Source: Alcanivorax sp. DP30
Lineage (GTDB): Bacteria > Pseudomonadota > Gammaproteobacteria > Pseudomonadales > Alcanivoracaceae
Length of the DNA: 64,000 nucleotides
NCBI RefSeq assembly: GCF_009882945.1
Contig: NZ_WTUY01000003.1
Coordinates: 62,001-126,000 of the forward strand
Reading direction: 5' to 3'
Part shown: one piece after another, positions 40,247 to 48,592 of the stretch
Layout: each line of letters opens with the position of its first letter
Position numbering within the stretch: position 1 is the stretch's first letter
The notes under the pieces: model-generated
Told to the model about the DNA's origin: nothing
Databases searched by the model: none
The model's input: only the letters and a program-made list of their open reading frames with translations
Made by a program: the position numbers and the translations under genes

Positions 40247-40404
40247 GGGCCGCCCAGGGACGGGTAACGGAAATCCCCAAGTCACACCTCTGGCAAGACC
40301 GACATAAATGAGTAAAATGCCTCCGACACCAGCGGCAGGCGCCTGCGCGGTTTTGCCACACCCTCCTCGGGGGGAACCGGCGCCAACCTGACACCCAACC
40401 CATG

Positions 40405-40449
40405 CCCGGGGACGACCCCGATCACGGCATTATTCCGGGGACGACCCCA
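40405..40449 (+). ncRNA. Guanidine-II (mini-ykkC) riboswitch
   Basis: Two near-identical stem-loops, GGGG ACGA CCCC at 40408-40419 and at 40437-40448, are separated by 17 bases. The twin hairpins with ACGR loops are the signature of the guanidine-II riboswitch. The ribosome-binding site AGGAG (40453-40457) begins four bases after the second hairpin, so ligand control of translation is expected. The next gene is the guanidinium exporter, the usual target. Confidence 0.93.
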
Positions 40450-40463
40450 TGCAGGAGTTCTGT

Positions 40464-40781
40464 ATGGCATGGGTCTATATCTTTTTTGCCGGCTTACTGG
40501 AAATCGGCTGGGCCCTCGGCCTGAAAGCCAGCGAAGGGTTTACCCGCCCGCTTCCCACTGTTTTCACTCTGATCGCCGCCGCGTTGAGTTTCTGGTTGTT
40601 GGCCCTGGCCATGCGCGACCTCCCCGCCGGTACCGCCTATGCGGTGTGGAGCGGCATCGGAGCATTCGGCACCGTTGTGCTGGGCATTGTCCTGTTTCAG
40701 GATGCGGTCAGTGCCCCTCGCCTGCTGTGCCTGGGCCTGATTCTGGCCGGCATCATCGGACTGAAAATGTTTAGTTCCTGA
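40464..40781 (+). CDS. gdx: Guanidinium exporter, SMR family
   Basis: A 105-residue four-helix membrane protein of the small multidrug resistance family, subtype Gdx (formerly SugE). The central E13 in FFAGLLEIGWALGLK is the proton/guanidinium binding site, and the conserved KASEGFTRPLPT loop follows. Homologues work as antiparallel dimers that exchange two protons for one guanidinium. The ATG at 40464 has AGGAG six bases before it, directly downstream of the guanidine-II riboswitch. Confidence 0.95.
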   Translation: MAWVYIFFAGLLEIGWALGLKASEGFTRPLPTVFTLIAAALSFWLLALAMRDLPAGTAYAVWSGIGAFGTVVLGIVLFQDAVSAPRLLCLGLILAGIIGLKMFSS

Positions 40782-41520: not shown

Positions 41521-42450
41521 TTATGGTTCGTTGCCTTTCACCGCCTTCACTCCACTTAATGTCTTGAAGCAGGTGGCCTGCGCGGTGTCATTGAATTCCT
41601 GAATGTAGGGTAACCCCTCATCCTCGATACGCACTGCCGCATACAGCGTCCGCCACACGCCCTTTTCCCCCAGCCGCACCGTCTTGAGCAAATCATGCTC
41701 GGTGTACTCGGTCAGCGCCCAGCTCGGCAATGCGGCAACGCCGCGGCCTGCGGCAACCAATTGCGCCATCATGGGCGTCAGCTCAGCCGTGCGAATTGCG
41801 GCCGGTTCCACCCGAGCCGGTTCCAGAAATACGGAAAACACATCCAGCCGTTCGCGTTCCACCGGATAGGTAATCAGGGTCTGCTCGGCCAAATCCTCCG
41901 GCTCCATCCACTTCTGGGCCGCCAGCGGCGAGCGCACCGACACCGCCAGCACCAGCTCATAGCGAAACAGGGGAAGATACTTCACTGCGTCGTTCGCCAC
42001 CGGATCGGAGGTAATCACCATGTCCAGATCGCCACGCAGCAGCGCCGGTAATGGAGCAAAACTGAACGCAGCCGACAGATCCAGTTCCACCTCCGGCCAG
42101 TGTTCGCGAAACGCATCCAGGGCGGGCATCAGCCACTGGAAACAGGAGTGGCAATCAATGGCGATATGCAGCCGACCCGACTGCCCTTCCGCCAGCCGCT
42201 TCAGCTCCCGCTCCGCCTGCTGCACCTTCGGCAGGATCTCCTCTCCCAGCGCCAACAATCGCGATCCGGCAGCGGTAAAGCGCACCGGCCGGGAGCGTCT
42301 GACAACCAGCTCCACCCCCAGACGGTGTTCCAGATCTTTCAACTGGTGCGACAGGGCCGACTGGGTGACATGCAGCCGTTCCGCCGCCTCCACCAGGGAG
42401 CCGGCTTCATCAATGGCACGAAGTGTGGCGAGGTGTCGTAATTCGAGCAT
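41521..42450 (-). CDS. metR: LysR-family regulator MetR
   Basis: A 309-residue regulator of methionine synthesis. The N-terminal helix-turn-helix is LATLRAIDEAGSLVEAAERLHVTQSALSHQ. The co-inducer domain starts HIAIDCHSCFQWLMPAL, which is characteristic of MetR. In enterobacteria it responds to homocysteine and activates metE and metH. The ATG at 42450 follows GGAGG. It is divergent from the mesX–mesD operon, which makes that operon its probable target here. Confidence 0.92.
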   Translation of the reverse strand: MLELRHLATLRAIDEAGSLVEAAERLHVTQSALSHQLKDLEHRLGVELVVRRSRPVRFTAAGSRLLALGEEILPKVQQAERELKRLAEGQSGRLHIAIDCHSCFQWLMPALDAFREHWPEVELDLSAAFSFAPLPALLRGDLDMVITSDPVANDAVKYLPLFRYELVLAVSVRSPLAAQKWMEPEDLAEQTLITYPVERERLDVFSVFLEPARVEPAAIRTAELTPMMAQLVAAGRGVAALPSWALTEYTEHDLLKTVRLGEKGVWRTLYAAVRIEDEGLPYIQEFNDTAQATCFKTLSGVKAVKGNEP

Positions 42451-42833
42451 GAAGACCTCCAACGTTTTTTGCGGGAGCTTGCCTGCAAGCGAAAAAAGGC
42501 CGCCCGAAATAATTGAGACAAACTAATAGTTAGCGATATTTTTTTGATTCTGCCTCAAGTCGGCTCACCAGCACAACAGCCGAAACGGGGCCGTCCAGGG
42601 GCCCCTCAATACAGCGACGGCCCCCATCCCATCAACGACGCCTTCGACCTGCAGGCGGACATCCGAATGACAGCGCCAGGCGACCAAGCATGAGCTCATC
42701 TCATGTTTCGATGAAATAATACCAATTACCCTCAAGTAACGCCTTGGGCATAATGGCCGCAAATCACGCTTCATCGCGTTTTACCAACCGCGATGCGAAC
42801 CACGACAAGCACCGACACGGACGCCCTGGCACC
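42451..42833. promoter_or_regulatory. metR–mesX divergent control region
   Basis: No gene seen. A REP-like GCGGGAGCTTGCCTGCAAGC lies at 42471-42490. ATGAGCTCAT (42690-42699) is a 10-base perfect palindrome, followed by CTCATGTTTCGATGAAA, a weak MetR-like TGAA/TTCA arrangement. The in-frame region before the mesX ATG has no good ribosome-binding site for an earlier start. Confidence 0.4.
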
Positions 42834-43811
42834 ATGAGCAATGAATTCACCTTCAGCATCAAACGCATTTATTTCGATGAGGATTACCGTCCAGCCGACA
42901 ACACGCGCATTACCACCAACTTTGCCAACCTGGCGCGGGGAGAGCGGCGCAAGGAAAACCTGCGCGACACCCTGACCATGATCAACAATCGGTTTAACGC
43001 GCTGGCCCATTGGGACAACCCCAATGGCGACAGGTACGTCGTGCAGCACGAGATTGTGTCCGTGGATATCGATATTGAAGGCAATGGCGAAACCTTCCCG
43101 ACCATCGAAATCCTGAAAACCACCATCTTTGACCGGCACACCAACAAACAGATTGAAGGGGTGGTCGGGAACAACTTTTCCTCTTACCTGCGGGACTATG
43201 ACTTCAGCATCGCCCTGCAGAACCATAACAAGGACCAGCCGCACTTCAGCATCCCTGAGGATTTTGGTGATCTGCACGGCAAGCTATTCAAGCATTTCGT
43301 CAACTCAAGTGCTTACCAGGAAAACTTCAGCAAGCTGCCGGTGATCTGCATCAGCGTATCGGATAACAAAGTGTACACCCGCACCGAGAACCACCATCCC
43401 GTGCTGGGATTTGAGTACCTGCCCAATGAATCGTCACTGACCGAAAGCTACTTCAAGAAAATGGGGTTGAGCGTGCGCTACTTCATGCCGCCCCACAGCG
43501 TGGCGCCGCTGGCGTTTTTCTTCTTCGGCGACCTGGTGAACGATTACACCAATCTGGAGCTGATCAGCACCATCAGCACCATGGAAACGTTCCAGAGAAT
43601 CTATCGGCCCGAGATTTACAACGCCAATTCCGAAGCGGGCAATCGCTACCAGCCCAGTCTGAAGCACTCTGACTACTCTCTTACCCGCATTCATTACGAC
43701 CGGGAAGAGCGCAGTCAATTGGCCGTCAAGCAAGGCAAATTCACTGAAGAGAACCTGATCGAGCCTTACCGGACGGTGCTGAATCAGTGGTCTGCGAATT
43801 ACGGTATTTAA
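42834..43811 (+). CDS. mesX: DUF1852 protein, putative oxygenase MesX
   Basis: A 325-residue soluble protein of family DUF1852. The name MesX comes from work on folate-independent methionine synthases, where it is required together with the core enzyme MesD and oxygen. Recognisable stretches are SIKRIYFDEDYRP, TTNFANLARGERRKENLR and MINNRFNALAHWD. No cofactor motif is evident to me. It is followed after 22 bases by the mesD gene and then by a flavin reductase gene. It lies divergent from metR. I chose the ATG at 42834 for the family N-terminus. Confidence 0.85.
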   Translation: MSNEFTFSIKRIYFDEDYRPADNTRITTNFANLARGERRKENLRDTLTMINNRFNALAHWDNPNGDRYVVQHEIVSVDIDIEGNGETFPTIEILKTTIFDRHTNKQIEGVVGNNFSSYLRDYDFSIALQNHNKDQPHFSIPEDFGDLHGKLFKHFVNSSAYQENFSKLPVICISVSDNKVYTRTENHHPVLGFEYLPNESSLTESYFKKMGLSVRYFMPPHSVAPLAFFFFGDLVNDYTNLELISTISTMETFQRIYRPEIYNANSEAGNRYQPSLKHSDYSLTRIHYDREERSQLAVKQGKFTEENLIEPYRTVLNQWSANYGI

Positions 43812-43833
43812 CTCATACACGGCAGAACAAATC

Positions 43834-44859
43834 ATGAAACGATTGTTACCCACATCCACGGCGGGCAGCCTACCCAAGCCCAGCTGGCTGGCCGAGCCCG
43901 AAACGCTCTGGTCTCCCTGGAAGTTGCAGGGCGATGAACTCATCGACGGCAAACAGGATGCCCTGCGCCTAAGCTTGCACGAACAGCAGCTGGCCGGCAT
44001 CGACATCGTCAGCGATGGCGAACAAACCCGTCAGCACTTCGTCACCACCTTTATCGAGCATCTGGACGGGGTGGATTTCGAGAAACGGGAAACGGTCAAA
44101 ATTCGCGATCGCTACGATGCCAGTGTGCCCACCGTCGTGGGGGCGGTTAGCCGTCAAAAGCCGGTGTTTGTGGACGATGCCCGATTTCTGCGGGAGCAGA
44201 CCCGACAACCGATCAAGTGGGCCCTGCCCGGCCCCATGACCATGATCGATACGCTTTACGATGCCCATTACAAAAGCCGGGAAAAACTGGCTTGGGAATT
44301 CGCCCGGATCCTCAACCAGGAAGCCCGAGAGCTGGAGGCAGCGGGTGTCGACATTATTCAATTCGACGAGCCCGCCTTTAATGTGTTCTTCGATGAGGTG
44401 AATGACTGGGGCGTGGCTACACTGGAAAAAGCCATTGAAGGGCTCAAGTGCGAGACCGCCGTGCATATCTGTTATGGCTACGGCATCCAAGCCAATACCG
44501 ACTGGAAAAAGACGCTGGGCTCGGAGTGGCGGCAATATGAAGAAGCTTTCCCCAAGCTACAGGCTTCCAGCATCGACATGGTTTCTCTGGAATGCCACAA
44601 CTCCCATGTCCCCATGGATCTGATTGAGTTGATTCGCGGCAAGAAAGTGATGGTGGGCGCCATCGATGTGGCGACCCACACCATTGAAAGCCCCGAGGAA
44701 GTTGCCAACACCTTGCGCCAGGCGCTGCAGTTCGTGGATGCCGACAAGCTTTACCCGTGCACCAACTGCGGCATGGCGCCGCTGCCTCGCCAGGTTGCCA
44801 GAGGCAAGCTGCGCGCATTGAGTGCCGGTACCGAGATCGTCCGCAATGAACTTGCCTGA
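43834..44859 (+). CDS. mesD: Core methionine synthase MesD (MetE C-terminal-like)
   Basis: A 341-residue protein equivalent to the C-terminal catalytic barrel of MetE, without its folate-binding N-terminal half. The zinc ligands appear to be H211 and C213 (HICYG), E253 (SLECH) and C312 (TNCG). The substrate motif LPTSTAGSLPKPSW opens the chain. It methylates homocysteine to methionine using a donor other than methyltetrahydrofolate. For MesD the donor was not known when described. It is coupled to mesX upstream. Confidence 0.87.
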   Translation: MKRLLPTSTAGSLPKPSWLAEPETLWSPWKLQGDELIDGKQDALRLSLHEQQLAGIDIVSDGEQTRQHFVTTFIEHLDGVDFEKRETVKIRDRYDASVPTVVGAVSRQKPVFVDDARFLREQTRQPIKWALPGPMTMIDTLYDAHYKSREKLAWEFARILNQEARELEAAGVDIIQFDEPAFNVFFDEVNDWGVATLEKAIEGLKCETAVHICYGYGIQANTDWKKTLGSEWRQYEEAFPKLQASSIDMVSLECHNSHVPMDLIELIRGKKVMVGAIDVATHTIESPEEVANTLRQALQFVDADKLYPCTNCGMAPLPRQVARGKLRALSAGTEIVRNELA

Positions 44860-44942
44860 ATCCTGTGGAAAGAACGAGCGCCAGATCGCGCCGTCGCTTC
44901 CCTGAGCTACCCGTTTGCGTTACACCCTATTCTGGAATCACT

Positions 44943-45452
44943 ATGTCACTGACCACCACGGCCATCGACCCTCTGCAGTTTCGCAAAGCGCTCGGCCATT
45001 TCGCCTCCGGGCTCACTGTGATTACCTCGCACATCGATGACGAACCCATCGGCTTTACCTGTCAGTCGTTCTACAGTGTATCGACAGCCCCGCCGCTGGT
45101 GTCATTCAGTGTGAAGCGCGATTCTTTCAGCTTCCCCAAGATCCGTCGTGCGGGCCGGTTTGCGGTGAACATCCTCTCTGACGAACAGGCCGCGGTATCC
45201 AACCTCTTTGCCCAACAGGGCGCGGACAAGTGGAAAGAAACCGATTGGACAACGTCTCCTCTGGGCAACCCGGTGATTGGTGGCAGCCTGCACTGGCTGG
45301 ACTGTGACATTCATGCCGAACACGAGGCCGGCGATCACCTGATCGTGATTGGGGAAGTCCGAGCGCTGAGTCTGCAGCAGCCCAACACCACACAGCCCCT
45401 GCTGTACTTCAAAGGGCAATACTGCAATCTGGACGCCTCGGTTACCAGCTGA
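44943..45452 (+). CDS. Flavin reductase family protein
   Basis: A 169-residue FMN-binding split-barrel protein. The motifs FRKALGHFASGLTVIT, GFTCQSFYSVSTAPPLVSFSV and FAVNILSDEQ are typical of NAD(P)H:flavin reductases that feed reduced flavin to partner monooxygenases. It lies 83 bases after mesD in the same direction. I infer that it supplies reduced flavin to MesX. The ATG at 44943 was chosen over an upstream one because it starts the conserved fold. Confidence 0.88.
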   Translation: MSLTTTAIDPLQFRKALGHFASGLTVITSHIDDEPIGFTCQSFYSVSTAPPLVSFSVKRDSFSFPKIRRAGRFAVNILSDEQAAVSNLFAQQGADKWKETDWTTSPLGNPVIGGSLHWLDCDIHAEHEAGDHLIVIGEVRALSLQQPNTTQPLLYFKGQYCNLDASVTS

Positions 45453-45617
45453 GGCCCTTTACGCCCAGTCACCCCGAATCCAGCATGGGTTTAACGGGGT
45501 ATTTCGCATGGGAAAATGATTATCGGGCATGAACCCGCGCAGGCAACGGCAGACTCTCGCCATCCCATTCTAACTGTTACTACATCGCCAACATTTGTGG
45601 CTTGCCAAGGTTTTAAT

Positions 45618-46400
45618 ATGGAATTTTTGCTTTATTTGGTTCTGGGTGCAGCGGCCGGGGTATTGGCCGGTCTGTTTGGGGTCGGCGGCGGCATCATCAT
45701 CGTGCCGGTACTGGTTCTGAGCTTTACCGCCCAGGGCGTCGACCCGCAAGTATTGACCCATCTGGCCGTTGGCACTTCACTGGCCACCATCGTGTTCACT
45801 TCCATCAACTCCGTCATGGAGCATCACCGCAAAGGGGCTGTGCAGTGGCCCATTGTGGCCTGGATGACTGTGGGTATCCTGGTCGGCGCGGGGCTTGGCT
45901 CGCTCACTGCCGCGTCAATTCAGGGCCCGATGCTGCAGAAGATCATTGGTGTATTTGCCGTCGTTATTGCCATTCAAATGGCGCTGGATCTGAAACCAAG
46001 AGCCAGCCGTGCGGTGCCTGGCAAGCTGGGGCTAACGGCCGCAGGCGGAGTCATTGGCTGGGCCTCGGCGATCTTTGGCATCGGGGGCGGCACCCTGAAT
46101 GTGCCTTTTCTCACCTGGCGCAGCCTGCCCATGCAACAGGCGGTGGCGACCTCCTCCGCGTGCGGACTGCCCATTGCCGCTGCCAGCGCCTTGAGCTTCA
46201 TGCTGATTGGCTGGAGTCAGCCACAATTACCCGAGTGGAGCCTGGGGTACGTGTATCTTCCGGCCATGGTGGGTATCGCGTTTACCAGCATGTTCTTTGC
46301 CCGTTTTGGGGCACGTTTGGCACACAGACTCTCGCCGCGCCTGCTAAAGCGCCTGTTCGCCCTGTTGCTGCTTTGCGTGGGGGGGAGTTTTCTCGTTTGA
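45618..46400 (+). CDS. TauE/SafE-family sulfite/organosulfur permease
   Basis: A 260-residue inner-membrane protein with about eight helices in two homologous halves. Each half has the glycine-rich family motif, GLFGVGGGIIIVP and IFGIGGGTLNVPF. Members export or import sulfite, sulfoacetate and related anions. It lies 165 bases after the flavin reductase gene on the same strand, so a sulfur-related role beside methionine synthesis is plausible. The ATG at 45618 is supported by the predicted first helix and by AAGG upstream. Confidence 0.88.
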   Translation: MEFLLYLVLGAAAGVLAGLFGVGGGIIIVPVLVLSFTAQGVDPQVLTHLAVGTSLATIVFTSINSVMEHHRKGAVQWPIVAWMTVGILVGAGLGSLTAASIQGPMLQKIIGVFAVVIAIQMALDLKPRASRAVPGKLGLTAAGGVIGWASAIFGIGGGTLNVPFLTWRSLPMQQAVATSSACGLPIAAASALSFMLIGWSQPQLPEWSLGYVYLPAMVGIAFTSMFFARFGARLAHRLSPRLLKRLFALLLLCVGGSFLV

Positions 46401-46564: not shown

Positions 46565-47731
46565 TCAGCTTTCTGCCTGATCCTCGATCACTTTCAATAA
46601 CCGATCCGGGCCCAGTTCCACCGGCTTCGGCTCACCGGGCAATTCCCAATGACCGGCATGACGCTCGTCAGGCTTGCTGTCCATCAATGGGAGGCTGGTG
46701 AGATCGGCCAGGGCATCACGGAACAAATCCGTGCGGTAGCACTGCGCGGCAAACGTCTGCTTTTCTTCCAGAGAGCATTGCCGCCAGCGCTGCATTTCTT
46801 CCAGCATGAAACGGGCATCCGAACGCCAGGGGAAATTGGCATGGAAACCGGCAAACACATGGAAATGATGCGCCGGAAACGGCTGACCGGTTAGCCCACC
46901 CGGCAAGCGCTGACTGAACGGCGCACGAATGATTTCCGCCGGCACATCCAGCCACGCCGGATGCGCCAGCAATGACAGACTGTCCACCAGATTTTCATCG
47001 GCATAACAGGCCGCTTTATACAGGGCACGCAACATGGCGCGGTGTTCATCCGGGTGGCGGGCCACCCAATCGCGTGACACGGCCAGCACCTTCTCTGGCG
47101 CATTTTCCCAGATCTGATAGCCCGACAGGATACAGTGCCCCGCTCCGGTGAGCGCCGCCAGACTGTTCCAGGGCTCCCCCACACAGAAGCCATCGATATG
47201 CCCCATGCGCAGGTGATCTACCATCTGCGACGGCGGCAAGACCACCAGTTTCACATCATGATCCGGGTCCAGCCCGGCCACACTCAGCCAATGCCGAAGT
47301 TGGTAGCTGTGGCAGGAAAACGGGAAAACTACCGCCAACACCAGAGGGGCCTCGCCTCCACTTGCGCGTGCCGCCACCAGCTTGTTCATGGCGCTAGCCA
47401 TGTCGTTGGCCGTGGGCCCTTCGGACAGTGCACACAACCCCTGAAACAACATGGGAGACACCGTAATGGCGTTACCGTTCAGGCCCATGGAAAAGGCGGT
47501 GGCCAGAGGTTTCTTGATGCAGCCCAGCCCCAGAGAGGTGGCCAGCATCATTGGCGCCAGCATGGGCGCGGCATCCAGCTGGCCCACCAACAGGCGATCA
47601 CGCAGACTGGCCCAGCTCCATTCCGGCTGCAATTCCACATCCAGACCTTCAGCGGCGAAAAAACCCGCTTCCTGAGCGACGGCAAGGGGAAGGCTGTCTG
47701 TCAGCGGCATATAGCCGATACGGATTTTCAT
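46565..47731 (-). CDS. nasS: Nitrate sensor NasS (NrtA-like)
   Basis: A 388-residue protein homologous to the nitrate-binding lipoproteins NrtA/CmpA but without a signal peptide, so it is cytoplasmic. It starts MKIRIGYMPLTDSLPLAVAQ and keeps ligand-site segments (SMGLNGNAITVS, GFCVGEPWN). In Azotobacter, Pseudomonas and Paracoccus, NasS binds nitrate or nitrite and otherwise holds the antiterminator NasT inactive. nasT is just upstream. The start overlaps the stop of a small reading frame (ATGA) at 47728. Confidence 0.9.
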   Translation of the reverse strand: MKIRIGYMPLTDSLPLAVAQEAGFFAAEGLDVELQPEWSWASLRDRLLVGQLDAAPMLAPMMLATSLGLGCIKKPLATAFSMGLNGNAITVSPMLFQGLCALSEGPTANDMASAMNKLVAARASGGEAPLVLAVVFPFSCHSYQLRHWLSVAGLDPDHDVKLVVLPPSQMVDHLRMGHIDGFCVGEPWNSLAALTGAGHCILSGYQIWENAPEKVLAVSRDWVARHPDEHRAMLRALYKAACYADENLVDSLSLLAHPAWLDVPAEIIRAPFSQRLPGGLTGQPFPAHHFHVFAGFHANFPWRSDARFMLEEMQRWRQCSLEEKQTFAAQCYRTDLFRDALADLTSLPLMDSKPDERHAGHWELPGEPKPVELGPDRLLKVIEDQAES

Positions 47732-47883
47732 GAGTCCTGCTCCGCCAGTACCTGACGCCGAACACTGGGTGCCGGACGCCGTAAAGGTTCACACAATTCA
47801 ACGGGAGGCCTTGCCCTGCTGACCGGTTTGGAGGAACTATCCACCAAACTACGGGACTTTTTCAAAGGCATCACACGTCGCAT
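47728..47883 (-). CDS. Possible 51-residue arginine-rich protein between nasT and nasS
   Basis: The ATG at 47883 has an ideal AAGGAG seven bases upstream. The frame continues for 51 codons and ends with an ATGA overlap on nasS, which is the layout of a real, translationally coupled gene. The product is rich in Arg, Ser and Pro (MRRVMPLKKSRSLVDSSS), with no membrane segment. I know no homologue. It may be a short regulator, or a leader that couples nasS translation. Confidence 0.5.
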   Translation of the reverse strand: MRRVMPLKKSRSLVDSSSKPVSRARPPVELCEPLRRPAPSVRRQVLAEQDS

Positions 47884-47932
47884 GTTTTCTCCTTGTTTTG
47901 CGTCAGGCATCCGACTTCAGGCCTCCAGCATT

Positions 47933-48592
47933 TCATCCCTGGGCCTTCAGCATCTCTGCATAATCCAGTACTGAACGGGCCACCTGTATCAGGGGCTGGC
48001 CGGTATTCATGGCCTGGCGTCTCAGGGTGCTGTAGGCATCCTGTTCATTGAGGCGGCGGCGCTGCATCAACAGTCCTTTCGCCCGTTCGATAATCTTGCG
48101 CTCAGCCAACGCTTCCCGGGTTTCTTCCAGTTCTTCCCGCAGAGCCTGGTATTCCCGGAACCGGGCAGTGGCCACCCGCATCACGCCACGCACCCGGGTC
48201 AGGTCGGTTTCACCGGCCACATAGGCACTCACACCGGCACGCAGGGCCGCCACCACCAGCTCTTCATCATCCTGATTACAGAACATGACCATGGGGCGCG
48301 GAATATCCCGCTGCACCAGCGCCATGCTTTCCAGAGTGTCACGATCCGGAGCATCCATATCCACGATAACCACATCCGGATTGCTGCTGCGCACCTTCTC
48401 CGCCAGGCCGGCGGCGCTGGTCAGACGGCACAGGATCTCGTGGCCCTCATCAATGAGAGCCCGCTCGAGGATCGCGGCGCGCGGTGGCTGGTCATCAACC
48501 AGCATGATTTTCAGAGCCATAACGTCGGGGGCATCCGAACCAAAAGAGTTACCGGATTGATTTGCAACGGTTGTGCCAGTCACGTCTTCCAT
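47933..48592 (-). CDS. nasT: ANTAR-domain antiterminator NasT
   Basis: A 219-residue response-regulator-like protein. The N-terminal receiver (KIMLVDDQPPRAAILERAL, with D in VIVDMDAPD) is followed by an ANTAR RNA-binding domain at about 150-210 (AERKIIERAKGLLMQRRRLNEQDAYSTLRRQAM). ANTAR proteins bind pairs of short hairpins and prevent a terminator from forming. The partner is NasS. A matching leader lies upstream of nrtA (53677-53799). A shorter form could start at the ATG at 48520. The upstream region has NtrC-type boxes. Confidence 0.92.
   Translation of the reverse strand: MEDVTGTTVANQSGNSFGSDAPDVMALKIMLVDDQPPRAAILERALIDEGHEILCRLTSAAGLAEKVRSSNPDVVIVDMDAPDRDTLESMALVQRDIPRPMVMFCNQDDEELVVAALRAGVSAYVAGETDLTRVRGVMRVATARFREYQALREELEETREALAERKIIERAKGLLMQRRRLNEQDAYSTLRRQAMNTGQPLIQVARSVLDYAEMLKAQG

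Follow-up and report, generated by a model that had tools for sequence, protein, structure and literature searches.

A five-gene region of Alcanivorax sp. DP30 is, in our view, likely to be a mobile, MetR-linked cassette that stands in for metE, in which the protein MesX would use reduced flavin and the permease TauE would be an accessory. The region lies in a stretch of 64,000 nucleotides (contig NZ_WTUY01000003.1, positions 62,001 to 126,000; hereafter the window), and consists of metR and, divergent from it, mesX, mesD, a flavin reductase gene (fre) and tauE. MesD and MesX (jointly MesXD) are known as a folate- and B12-independent, oxygen-dependent methionine synthase, in which MesD has been shown to need both MesX and oxygen (Price 2021, PMC7857596). 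The core of what was first found in this sequence is published; what is new is the exchange of a block of genes with metE, and the finding that flavin reductases and TauE permeases have been recruited beside mesX and mesD repeatedly and separately.

A first-pass annotation, made from the letters of the window, had named MesX and MesD, a need for oxygen and an open methyl donor. All of this fits, and it coincides with the published proposal. As far as the available text of Price 2021 goes, mesXD from S. koreensis makes Escherichia coli metE and metF mutants grow again, a flavin reductase neighbour with a redox role is already remarked upon, and the methyl donor and the cofactor of MesX are left open. 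We found no later answer on either in a search that most subscription papers and all bioRxiv preprints lay outside; the accessible parts of two papers on core methionine synthases (PMC12366255, PMC12478193) hold nothing on MesX or MesD. The annotation's further idea, that MesX is a reduced-flavin-dependent oxygenase, also fits, but it is not novel, having been proposed by Price 2021.

All five open reading frames were found where that annotation had placed them, and each was assigned by Pfam. The regulator gene, metR, is of the LysR type (PF00126/PF03466) and occupies 41521-42462 on the minus strand, divergent from mesX. The plus strand carries mesX (42834-43811; DUF1852/PF08908, 588.7 bits), encoding a putative oxygenase that would supply the methyl group; mesD (43834-44859; PF01717, 127 bits), a core methionine synthase without the folate domain; fre (44943-45452; PF01613, 147.1 bits), an HsaB-like flavin reductase; and tauE (45516-46400; PF01925, 191.1 bits, cut-off 32.6), a TSUP/TauE-SafE permease. 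The reading frame of mesX as listed begins at 42744, while the family match and the homologues begin at the ATG at 42834. That of fre begins at 44865, with a likely start near 44943, and the probable start of tauE is 45618, both judged from homologues. Just 22 bases separate mesX from mesD.

In the genus of the window, metE and the four-gene block share one chromosomal slot between metR and nasS. The order of the slot is lipocalin, CYTH, SMR, metR, then either metE or mesX-mesD-fre-tauE, then nasS and nasT. Five of the 17 genomes in the genus have MesX without MetE, 12 have MetE without MesX and none has both (Fisher p 1.6e-4, which overstates the independence of these related genomes). In 11 of the 12 MetE genomes metR adjoins metE, and in 11 of the 12 nasS does; both misses are at contig ends. 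MetE also sits in this slot in another genus of the family (G017, G018), and metE is therefore probably the older occupant. That metE is absent from all five MesX-positive genomes of the genus is consistent with MesXD serving as a methionine synthase; MetH is present in all five. Over the family as a whole (46 genomes), MesX is found in 8, a MetE folate-domain match in 34, MetH in 45 and MetF in 44, and one member (G029) still has metE beside metR and carries mesXD elsewhere. On a tree of nasS (18 rows) the state of the slot changes four times between metE and mesXD, and starred branches force three of these changes. The tree of metR (22 rows) has a single change, with a branch support of only 47; so low a count would be expected were metR to travel often with the cassette.

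Identity breaks between relatives bracket all four genes, which places fre and tauE inside the block that replaces metE, and by this measure mesX-mesD-fre-tauE (42834-46400, plus strand) is the unit of transfer. Comparing the window with G010 in steps of 200 bases, positions 42924-46323 are 89.5-99% identical, as against 64.5-79.5% in metR and 77-85% in nasS. By gene, the figures are 95% for mesX, 98% for mesD, 96% for fre and 94% for tauE, with 77% for metR, 81% for nasS and 83% for nasT, so that the high-identity block between the window's genome (G000) and G010 is exactly the four genes. Between G006 and G009 the block is larger: it is 98% identical from before metR to just behind tauE, i.e. 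metR and the four genes, with a right flank of 84% and no match reported on the left. G010, which has mesXD, and G008, which has metE, form a close pair whose outer flanks are 93-94% alike; their metR genes are 79% alike, and they differ by the exchange of metR and the synthase genes. The block is also found on plasmids. Among the 11 plasmid records examined, out of 209 that bear MesX, two from Acinetobacter variabilis, typed mobilizable, have the order mesX-mesD-fre-tauE-LysR, and two other Acinetobacter plasmids have mesX-mesD-fre without an annotated TauE.

Neighbours were surveyed at 132 mesX loci, made up of the window, 80 contig loci and 51 stretches from further genomes. The contig loci are the best 80 of at least 593 and so are biased to near relatives; alongside them we report an even sample of 44 loci (window included), one for each MesX-bearing genome among 398 drawn evenly from the phylum. 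In 11 of the 132 the stretch ends close to mesXD, by which neighbour counts can only be lowered. As a control we used 40 metE loci, taken from the 42 MetE genomes among 67 hand-picked ones (two were left out), and 20 of these loci are in genomes that also carry mesXD. A LysR gene stands within 2 kb at 40 of the 132 mesXD loci, at 17 of the 44 in the even sample and at 38 of the 40 metE loci.

TauE is the more frequent companion. It is found within 2 kb of mesXD at 52/132 loci and at 0/40 metE loci (Fisher p 7e-8), with 11/44 in the even sample (p 5e-4; 10/43 and p 0.001 without the window), and within 4 kb at 54/132. The lack of TauE beside metE suggests a link to MesX itself. On a TauE tree that combines 52 proteins linked within 5 kb with 40 unlinked ones, linkage changes five times, four of them forced by starred branches. 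The linked groups are those of Vibrio and Pseudoalteromonas (mostly upstream and divergent), of Endozoicomonas and Colwellia, of Cellvibrio and G119, and the type of the window, whose cassette copies are at least 85% identical in six genomes of the family, all MesX-positive. A single orthologue group of linked TauEs was considered and rejected: the tree needs at least four changes, and in the f16 genomes compared (G143, G227, G296, G111, G376) an unlinked TauE is closer to the window's (40-44%) than is the linked one (38-39%). No paper joining TauE to MesD or MesX was found, within the limits of the literature search given above.

Flavin reductases tell a similar story with more than one protein fold. 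A PF01613 reductase lies within 2 kb at 26/132 mesXD loci and 3/44 of the even sample, always after mesD and on the same strand in the 26, and an MsuE-type FMN reductase at 4/132 and 4/44; neither occurs at the 40 metE loci. For any flavin reductase, the comparison with metE loci gives 30/132 (Fisher p 2e-4), or 7/44 in the even sample (p 0.013; 6/43 and p 0.026 without the window). The tree of 30 linked and 20 unlinked PF01613 proteins has three groups and three changes, at least two of which are forced by starred branches: an HsaB-like group with the window's protein, a RutF/HpaC-like group in Acinetobacter and Cellvibrio, and one in Rhizobium and Shinella. The MsuE type has another fold, PF03358. 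The copy at L153 was tested and scores 248.6 bits on TIGR03566 (cut-off 212.5), and that at L173 is assigned by Pfam only. Three genomes of a single genus carry the MsuE type upstream of mesX; the fourth, which belongs to another family, has it between mesX and mesD. The reductases beside mesXD come from two unrelated folds and about four lineages, and the feature common to them is free reduced flavin. These recruitments are the chief new evidence in favour of what Price 2021 proposed about flavin.

How general is the dedicated reductase? Within the family, an orthologue of the window's fre (68-100% identity) is present in exactly the eight MesX-positive genomes; the remaining 38 are without one, and one of them has a relative at 29%. 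In the even sample, 19 of the 44 MesX genomes are without a relative of the window's fre even at E 1e-8, and a dedicated reductase of this kind is therefore not general. The first-pass annotation had made conservation of the flavin reductase and TauE beside mesX-mesD its own test. On this point linkage is far above the metE control, while universality does not hold. At loci without a PF01613 reductase we tallied Pfam families in 106 of 146 downstream and 96 of 127 upstream neighbours, those called having 80-520 residues and those left out being mainly short or second neighbours. Among the first 25 families, the upstream set (n=96) holds, besides the MsuE type, six short-chain dehydrogenases, three PF02219 proteins and two ferredoxin-reductase-type NAD-binding domains. 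The idea that further neighbours recur at these loci was set aside.

Upstream of mesX, an alignment of the five MesX-positive genomes of the genus has conserved blocks at 42691-42756 (plus strand), possible MetR sites and a possible promoter. The blocks are a TGAGN5CTCA dyad at 42691-42703, TGAAATAATACCAATT at 42712-42727 and TTGNGCATAATGG at 42744-42756; a scan with promoter consensus sequences did not list 42691-42756 as a promoter. In the wider survey, an exact TGAAN5TTCA is found within 350 bases of mesX at 34 of 131 loci, as compared with a mean of 1.1 (maximum 3) in letter shuffles. The regulator itself scores 286.2 bits on the NCBI MetR equivalog model, under the cut-off of 382. Despite this, its protein is 82-92% identical to those of the metR genes that adjoin metE in the genus, and we use the name MetR because of this synteny with metE in relatives; the window's regulator is likely to work as MetR. 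MetR control of PF08908-metE2 has been predicted before (Leyn 2014, PMC4239095, in the text available).

MesX is full length, matching the PF08908 profile (Pfam name 'Putative oxygenase MesX') over 1-323 of its 323 residues with 589 bits. An alignment of 140 MesX sequences, with a lowest pairwise identity of 55%, has 88 invariant positions, which include H188 (140/140), C172 and the acids E16, E92, D100, D121, D123, E194, D233, D237, E260 and E292; H148 is found in 139/140. Searched against Pfam at E values up to 10, MesX matched PF08908 alone, and against the Protein Data Bank (PDB) it had no relative by sequence and one profile match, at E 0.6. MesD reaches 703 bits on NF006589, whose cut-off is 392, and 679 bits when compared with PDB 3RPD, which Price 2021 (PMC7857596, text available) names as a MesD structure; our call of MesD rather than MesA-C is made on these two scores, and not on Price's ACIAD3523 threshold. 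As the first-pass annotation had it, the protein is a MetE-like core without the N-terminal folate half (Pfam finds PF01717 only), and the zinc ligands H211, C213, E253 and C312 are present in its sequence. E253 and C312 align with a glutamate and a cysteine of MetE (structure 1U1H), and the H-x-C pair, shifted in that alignment, was matched by eye. The homocysteine-binding residues of Price 2021 correspond to S12, E63 and D178, renumbered by eye from 3RPD.

We propose that MesD would methylate a zinc-bound homocysteine, a role drawn from these residues and from the family activity shown by Price 2021, and that MesX would make the methyl group available in an oxygen-dependent step. For this MesX may use free reduced flavin from a co-encoded NAD(P)H:flavin reductase, much as a two-component flavin oxygenase does, and cells without a linked reductase would presumably draw on a general one. 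TauE would most likely assist the pathway by moving a sulfur oxyanion, either importing sulfate or thiosulfate or exporting sulfite. The selective point would be methionine synthesis in air without B12 and without methyl-folate. A bolder version, which we consider a long shot, is that MesX founds a new kind of reduced-flavin oxygenase, one that oxidises a sulfur-containing metabolite and hands its methyl group, or a one-carbon unit converted to methyl, to homocysteine on MesD, while TauE exports the released sulfur anion, e.g. sulfite. Such chemistry would account for both the TauE and the MsuE neighbours that recur.

Could MesX be a metal-dependent oxygenase instead, e.g. with non-haem iron, its reductase doing no more than reducing ferric iron or recycling flavin as a shuttle? 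This is doubtful, in our judgement, if worth keeping in view. H188, H148, C172 and the many invariant aspartates and glutamates are enough for a metal site, and we noticed no cofactor test in the available text of Price 2021. Several reductase lineages and two folds, however, fit free reduced flavin better than iron, and by eye no 2-His-1-carboxylate spacing of a known family was recognised. It seems to us quite unlikely that fre and TauE are passengers that travel with mesXD without serving it. A passenger role would explain why both are absent from most loci and why neither was needed in E. coli (Price 2021, text available), and since the four genes move together in the genus their co-occurrence may count as few events. 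It sits poorly with the separate recruitments, namely at least four forced changes for TauE and, among the reductases, some three PF01613 groups plus an unrelated fold, and with the lack of either gene at 40 metE loci, 20 of them in genomes that carry mesXD. We find it hardly credible that the methyl group of MesD comes from folate after all, via MetF or an MTHFR-like protein (PF02219 + PF12225). MesD lacks the folate domain, an E. coli metF mutant grows again when given MesXD (Price 2021, text available), and the window's genome is without a second PF02219 match. What speaks for a folate donor is that an MTHFR-like gene lies near 10/132 mesX loci and 0/40 metE loci (p 0.12), that in the window's family three second PF02219 matches are all beside mesX, and that the two of 398 phylum genomes with an MTHFR-like gene are both MesX-positive with the gene linked. 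With only these two genomes, both from one genus, a genome-wide link of the MTHFR-like protein to MesX was rejected; at most three candidates per genome were scored in that search, so its negatives are not firm.

The role of TauE is the part of our proposal with the closest competitor. That it is a plain importer of sulfate or thiosulfate, feeding homocysteine synthesis and unrelated to the chemistry of MesX, is quite conceivable, if somewhat short of probable; it differs from our preferred explanation in the role of TauE only, and the two overlap. In the available text of PMC11535334, members of the TauE family reportedly export sulfite or sulfoacetate, with one importer of sulfate among them: a Pseudomonas fluorescens homologue restores growth of an E. 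coli cysA mutant, which was read as sulfate uptake, and a relative lies among genes of sulfate assimilation. The likeness of the assayed protein to the window's TauE is one of family, and a general supply of sulfur should favour TauE beside metE too, where we found 0/40. The first-pass annotation had taken the permease as a sign that an organosulfur or sulfite species is involved. An organosulfur methyl donor does not follow from the permease: in E. coli on glucose minimal medium the S. koreensis MesXD needs no other gene of the set (Price 2021, text available), and sulfate import, as by a TauE relative (PMC11535334), would be a matter of sulfur supply rather than of methyl chemistry.

Several points weigh against a MetR-linked cassette with flavin-using MesX and accessory TauE. 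Most mesX loci have no linked flavin reductase (102/132) and no TauE within 4 kb (78/132), and two of the eight MesX genomes of the family are without the cassette TauE. Rescue of E. coli by MesXD without fre or tauE means that neither is essential there (Price 2021, text available), and suggests that there is no strict need for TauE. Transfer together makes the block a unit of inheritance and is not proof that each gene is needed. By sequence MesX matches neither a known flavin-dependent oxygenase nor a solved structure, and the window has no exact TGAAN5TTCA MetR box, its best matches having two mismatches. Our Fisher tests treat related loci as independent, the trees were made by a quick method and have many weak forks, and the unlinked TauEs and reductases were sampled by their likeness to those of the window.

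It is useful to compare the window with known systems. With the system of Price 2021 it shares the two core proteins, the zinc and homocysteine residues, the flavin reductase neighbour and a presumed dependence on oxygen; it differs in adding TauE and a divergent MetR in one cassette, placed in the metE slot of the genus. Neither 'TauE' nor 'permease' appears in that paper's main text. The MetR regulon of Leyn 2014 likewise has PF08908-metE2 under predicted MetR control, whereas the window's own MetR site is degenerate. In its main text, so far as available, PF08908 is called a hypothetical reductase, and 'flavin' and 'TauE' occur 0 times. The metR-metE divergon has the same chromosomal slot and regulator, and the cassette takes the place of metE, but MetE uses methyl-tetrahydrofolate and has a folate domain, and MesD has none. 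Two-component flavin-dependent monooxygenases include HpaBC, HsaAB and SsuDE/MsuDE. Like these, the mesXD loci may have a separate small reductase (of HsaB, RutF/HpaC or MsuE type) beside a putative oxygenase; unlike them, MesX resembles none of the known oxygenase components in sequence, and its use of flavin is putative.

These results narrow the tests that are worth making. Reduced flavin is a recurrent companion of mesXD. TauE is a more frequent companion than the flavin reductase, and one unremarked in the literature we searched. Close relatives that differ at one slot, with metE in some and the cassette in others, offer a natural experiment on the requirements for replacing metE. The comparison also suggests how, in a single recombination event, bacteria might lose their dependence on B12 or methyl-folate.

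Regulation by B12 is on record for a related system. According to the published data available, B12 lowers DUF1852 by 8.3 log2 units in Acinetobacter baumannii AB5075, and by 2.5 log2 units a flavin reductase gene whose locus number differs by two (PMC12892962). We considered and rejected the idea that use of MesXD causes sulfur starvation: in A. baumannii, on the same partial view, B12 raised sulfur-acquisition genes while lowering DUF1852. Two strains apparently escape N2O toxicity by means of MesD homologues (PMC13059711, text available). The cassette of the window has no riboswitch (Rfam at gathering scores). Elsewhere, among 53 loci scanned, a cobalamin riboswitch is directly upstream of mesX on the same strand at two (L009, L172), and at L114 one is on the other strand, ahead of a LysR gene. 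QueH, described as a B12-independent epoxyqueuosine reductase (PMC10378866, text available), is encoded near mesXD at 4/132 loci (L106, L107, L117, L173), at 0/40 metE loci and on all four Acinetobacter plasmids examined for it (L260, L263, L264, L265). Its place beside mesXD hints at a wider B12-independence island.

The flanks of the slot carry features outside the pathway. The right boundary of the metE/mesXD slot is a nasS-like gene (46565-47731, minus strand), identified by Pfam and synteny. It is part of a nasS/nasT-like pair, an NMT1-like binding protein and an ANTAR regulator, at 46565-48592, which forms the right flank of the slot in the genus. On the left flank a Guanidine-II riboswitch (40404-40781; 38.8 bits, gathering score 32) is directly 5′ of a gene for a small multidrug-resistance-type transporter, probably a guanidinium exporter.

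Finally, some loci in the survey are of interest in themselves. The MTHFR-like protein (with a PF12225/DUF5981 end) is encoded at L065, L067, L072, L107, L117, L124, L125, L127, L157 and L158, and on three of the four Acinetobacter plasmids (L260, L263, L265). As judged by clustering, mesD adjoins mesX at 128/132 loci; the exceptions include L080 and L087 (none in reach), L079 (mesD in pieces) and L174 (a fragmentary mesX). L080 and L087, both from Pseudoalteromonas luteoviolacea, have an intact mesX and no mesD in the available stretch. At L087 mesX is followed by FeeM-like and leucine carboxyl methyltransferase-like genes, and at L080 by a beta-lactamase-family gene. L174 is a fragmentary extra mesX with a weak mesD match; its genome (G127) has an intact copy elsewhere. 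In Alcaligenes, L088 has a MetE-sized frame of 763 amino acids that lies between a LysR gene and mesX and weakly matches the MesD profile. Matches at L104 follow this pattern, and the two loci may hold metE and mesXD in tandem. On a Pantoea piersonii plasmid (NZ_CP115896.1) the mesX match is split in two, and an IS1-like transposase is annotated beneath the match. DUF1852 is also present in two records labelled Acinetobacter phage (CAKLQH020000007.1, CAKLQF020000011.1), which are probably mislabelled bacterial sequence.

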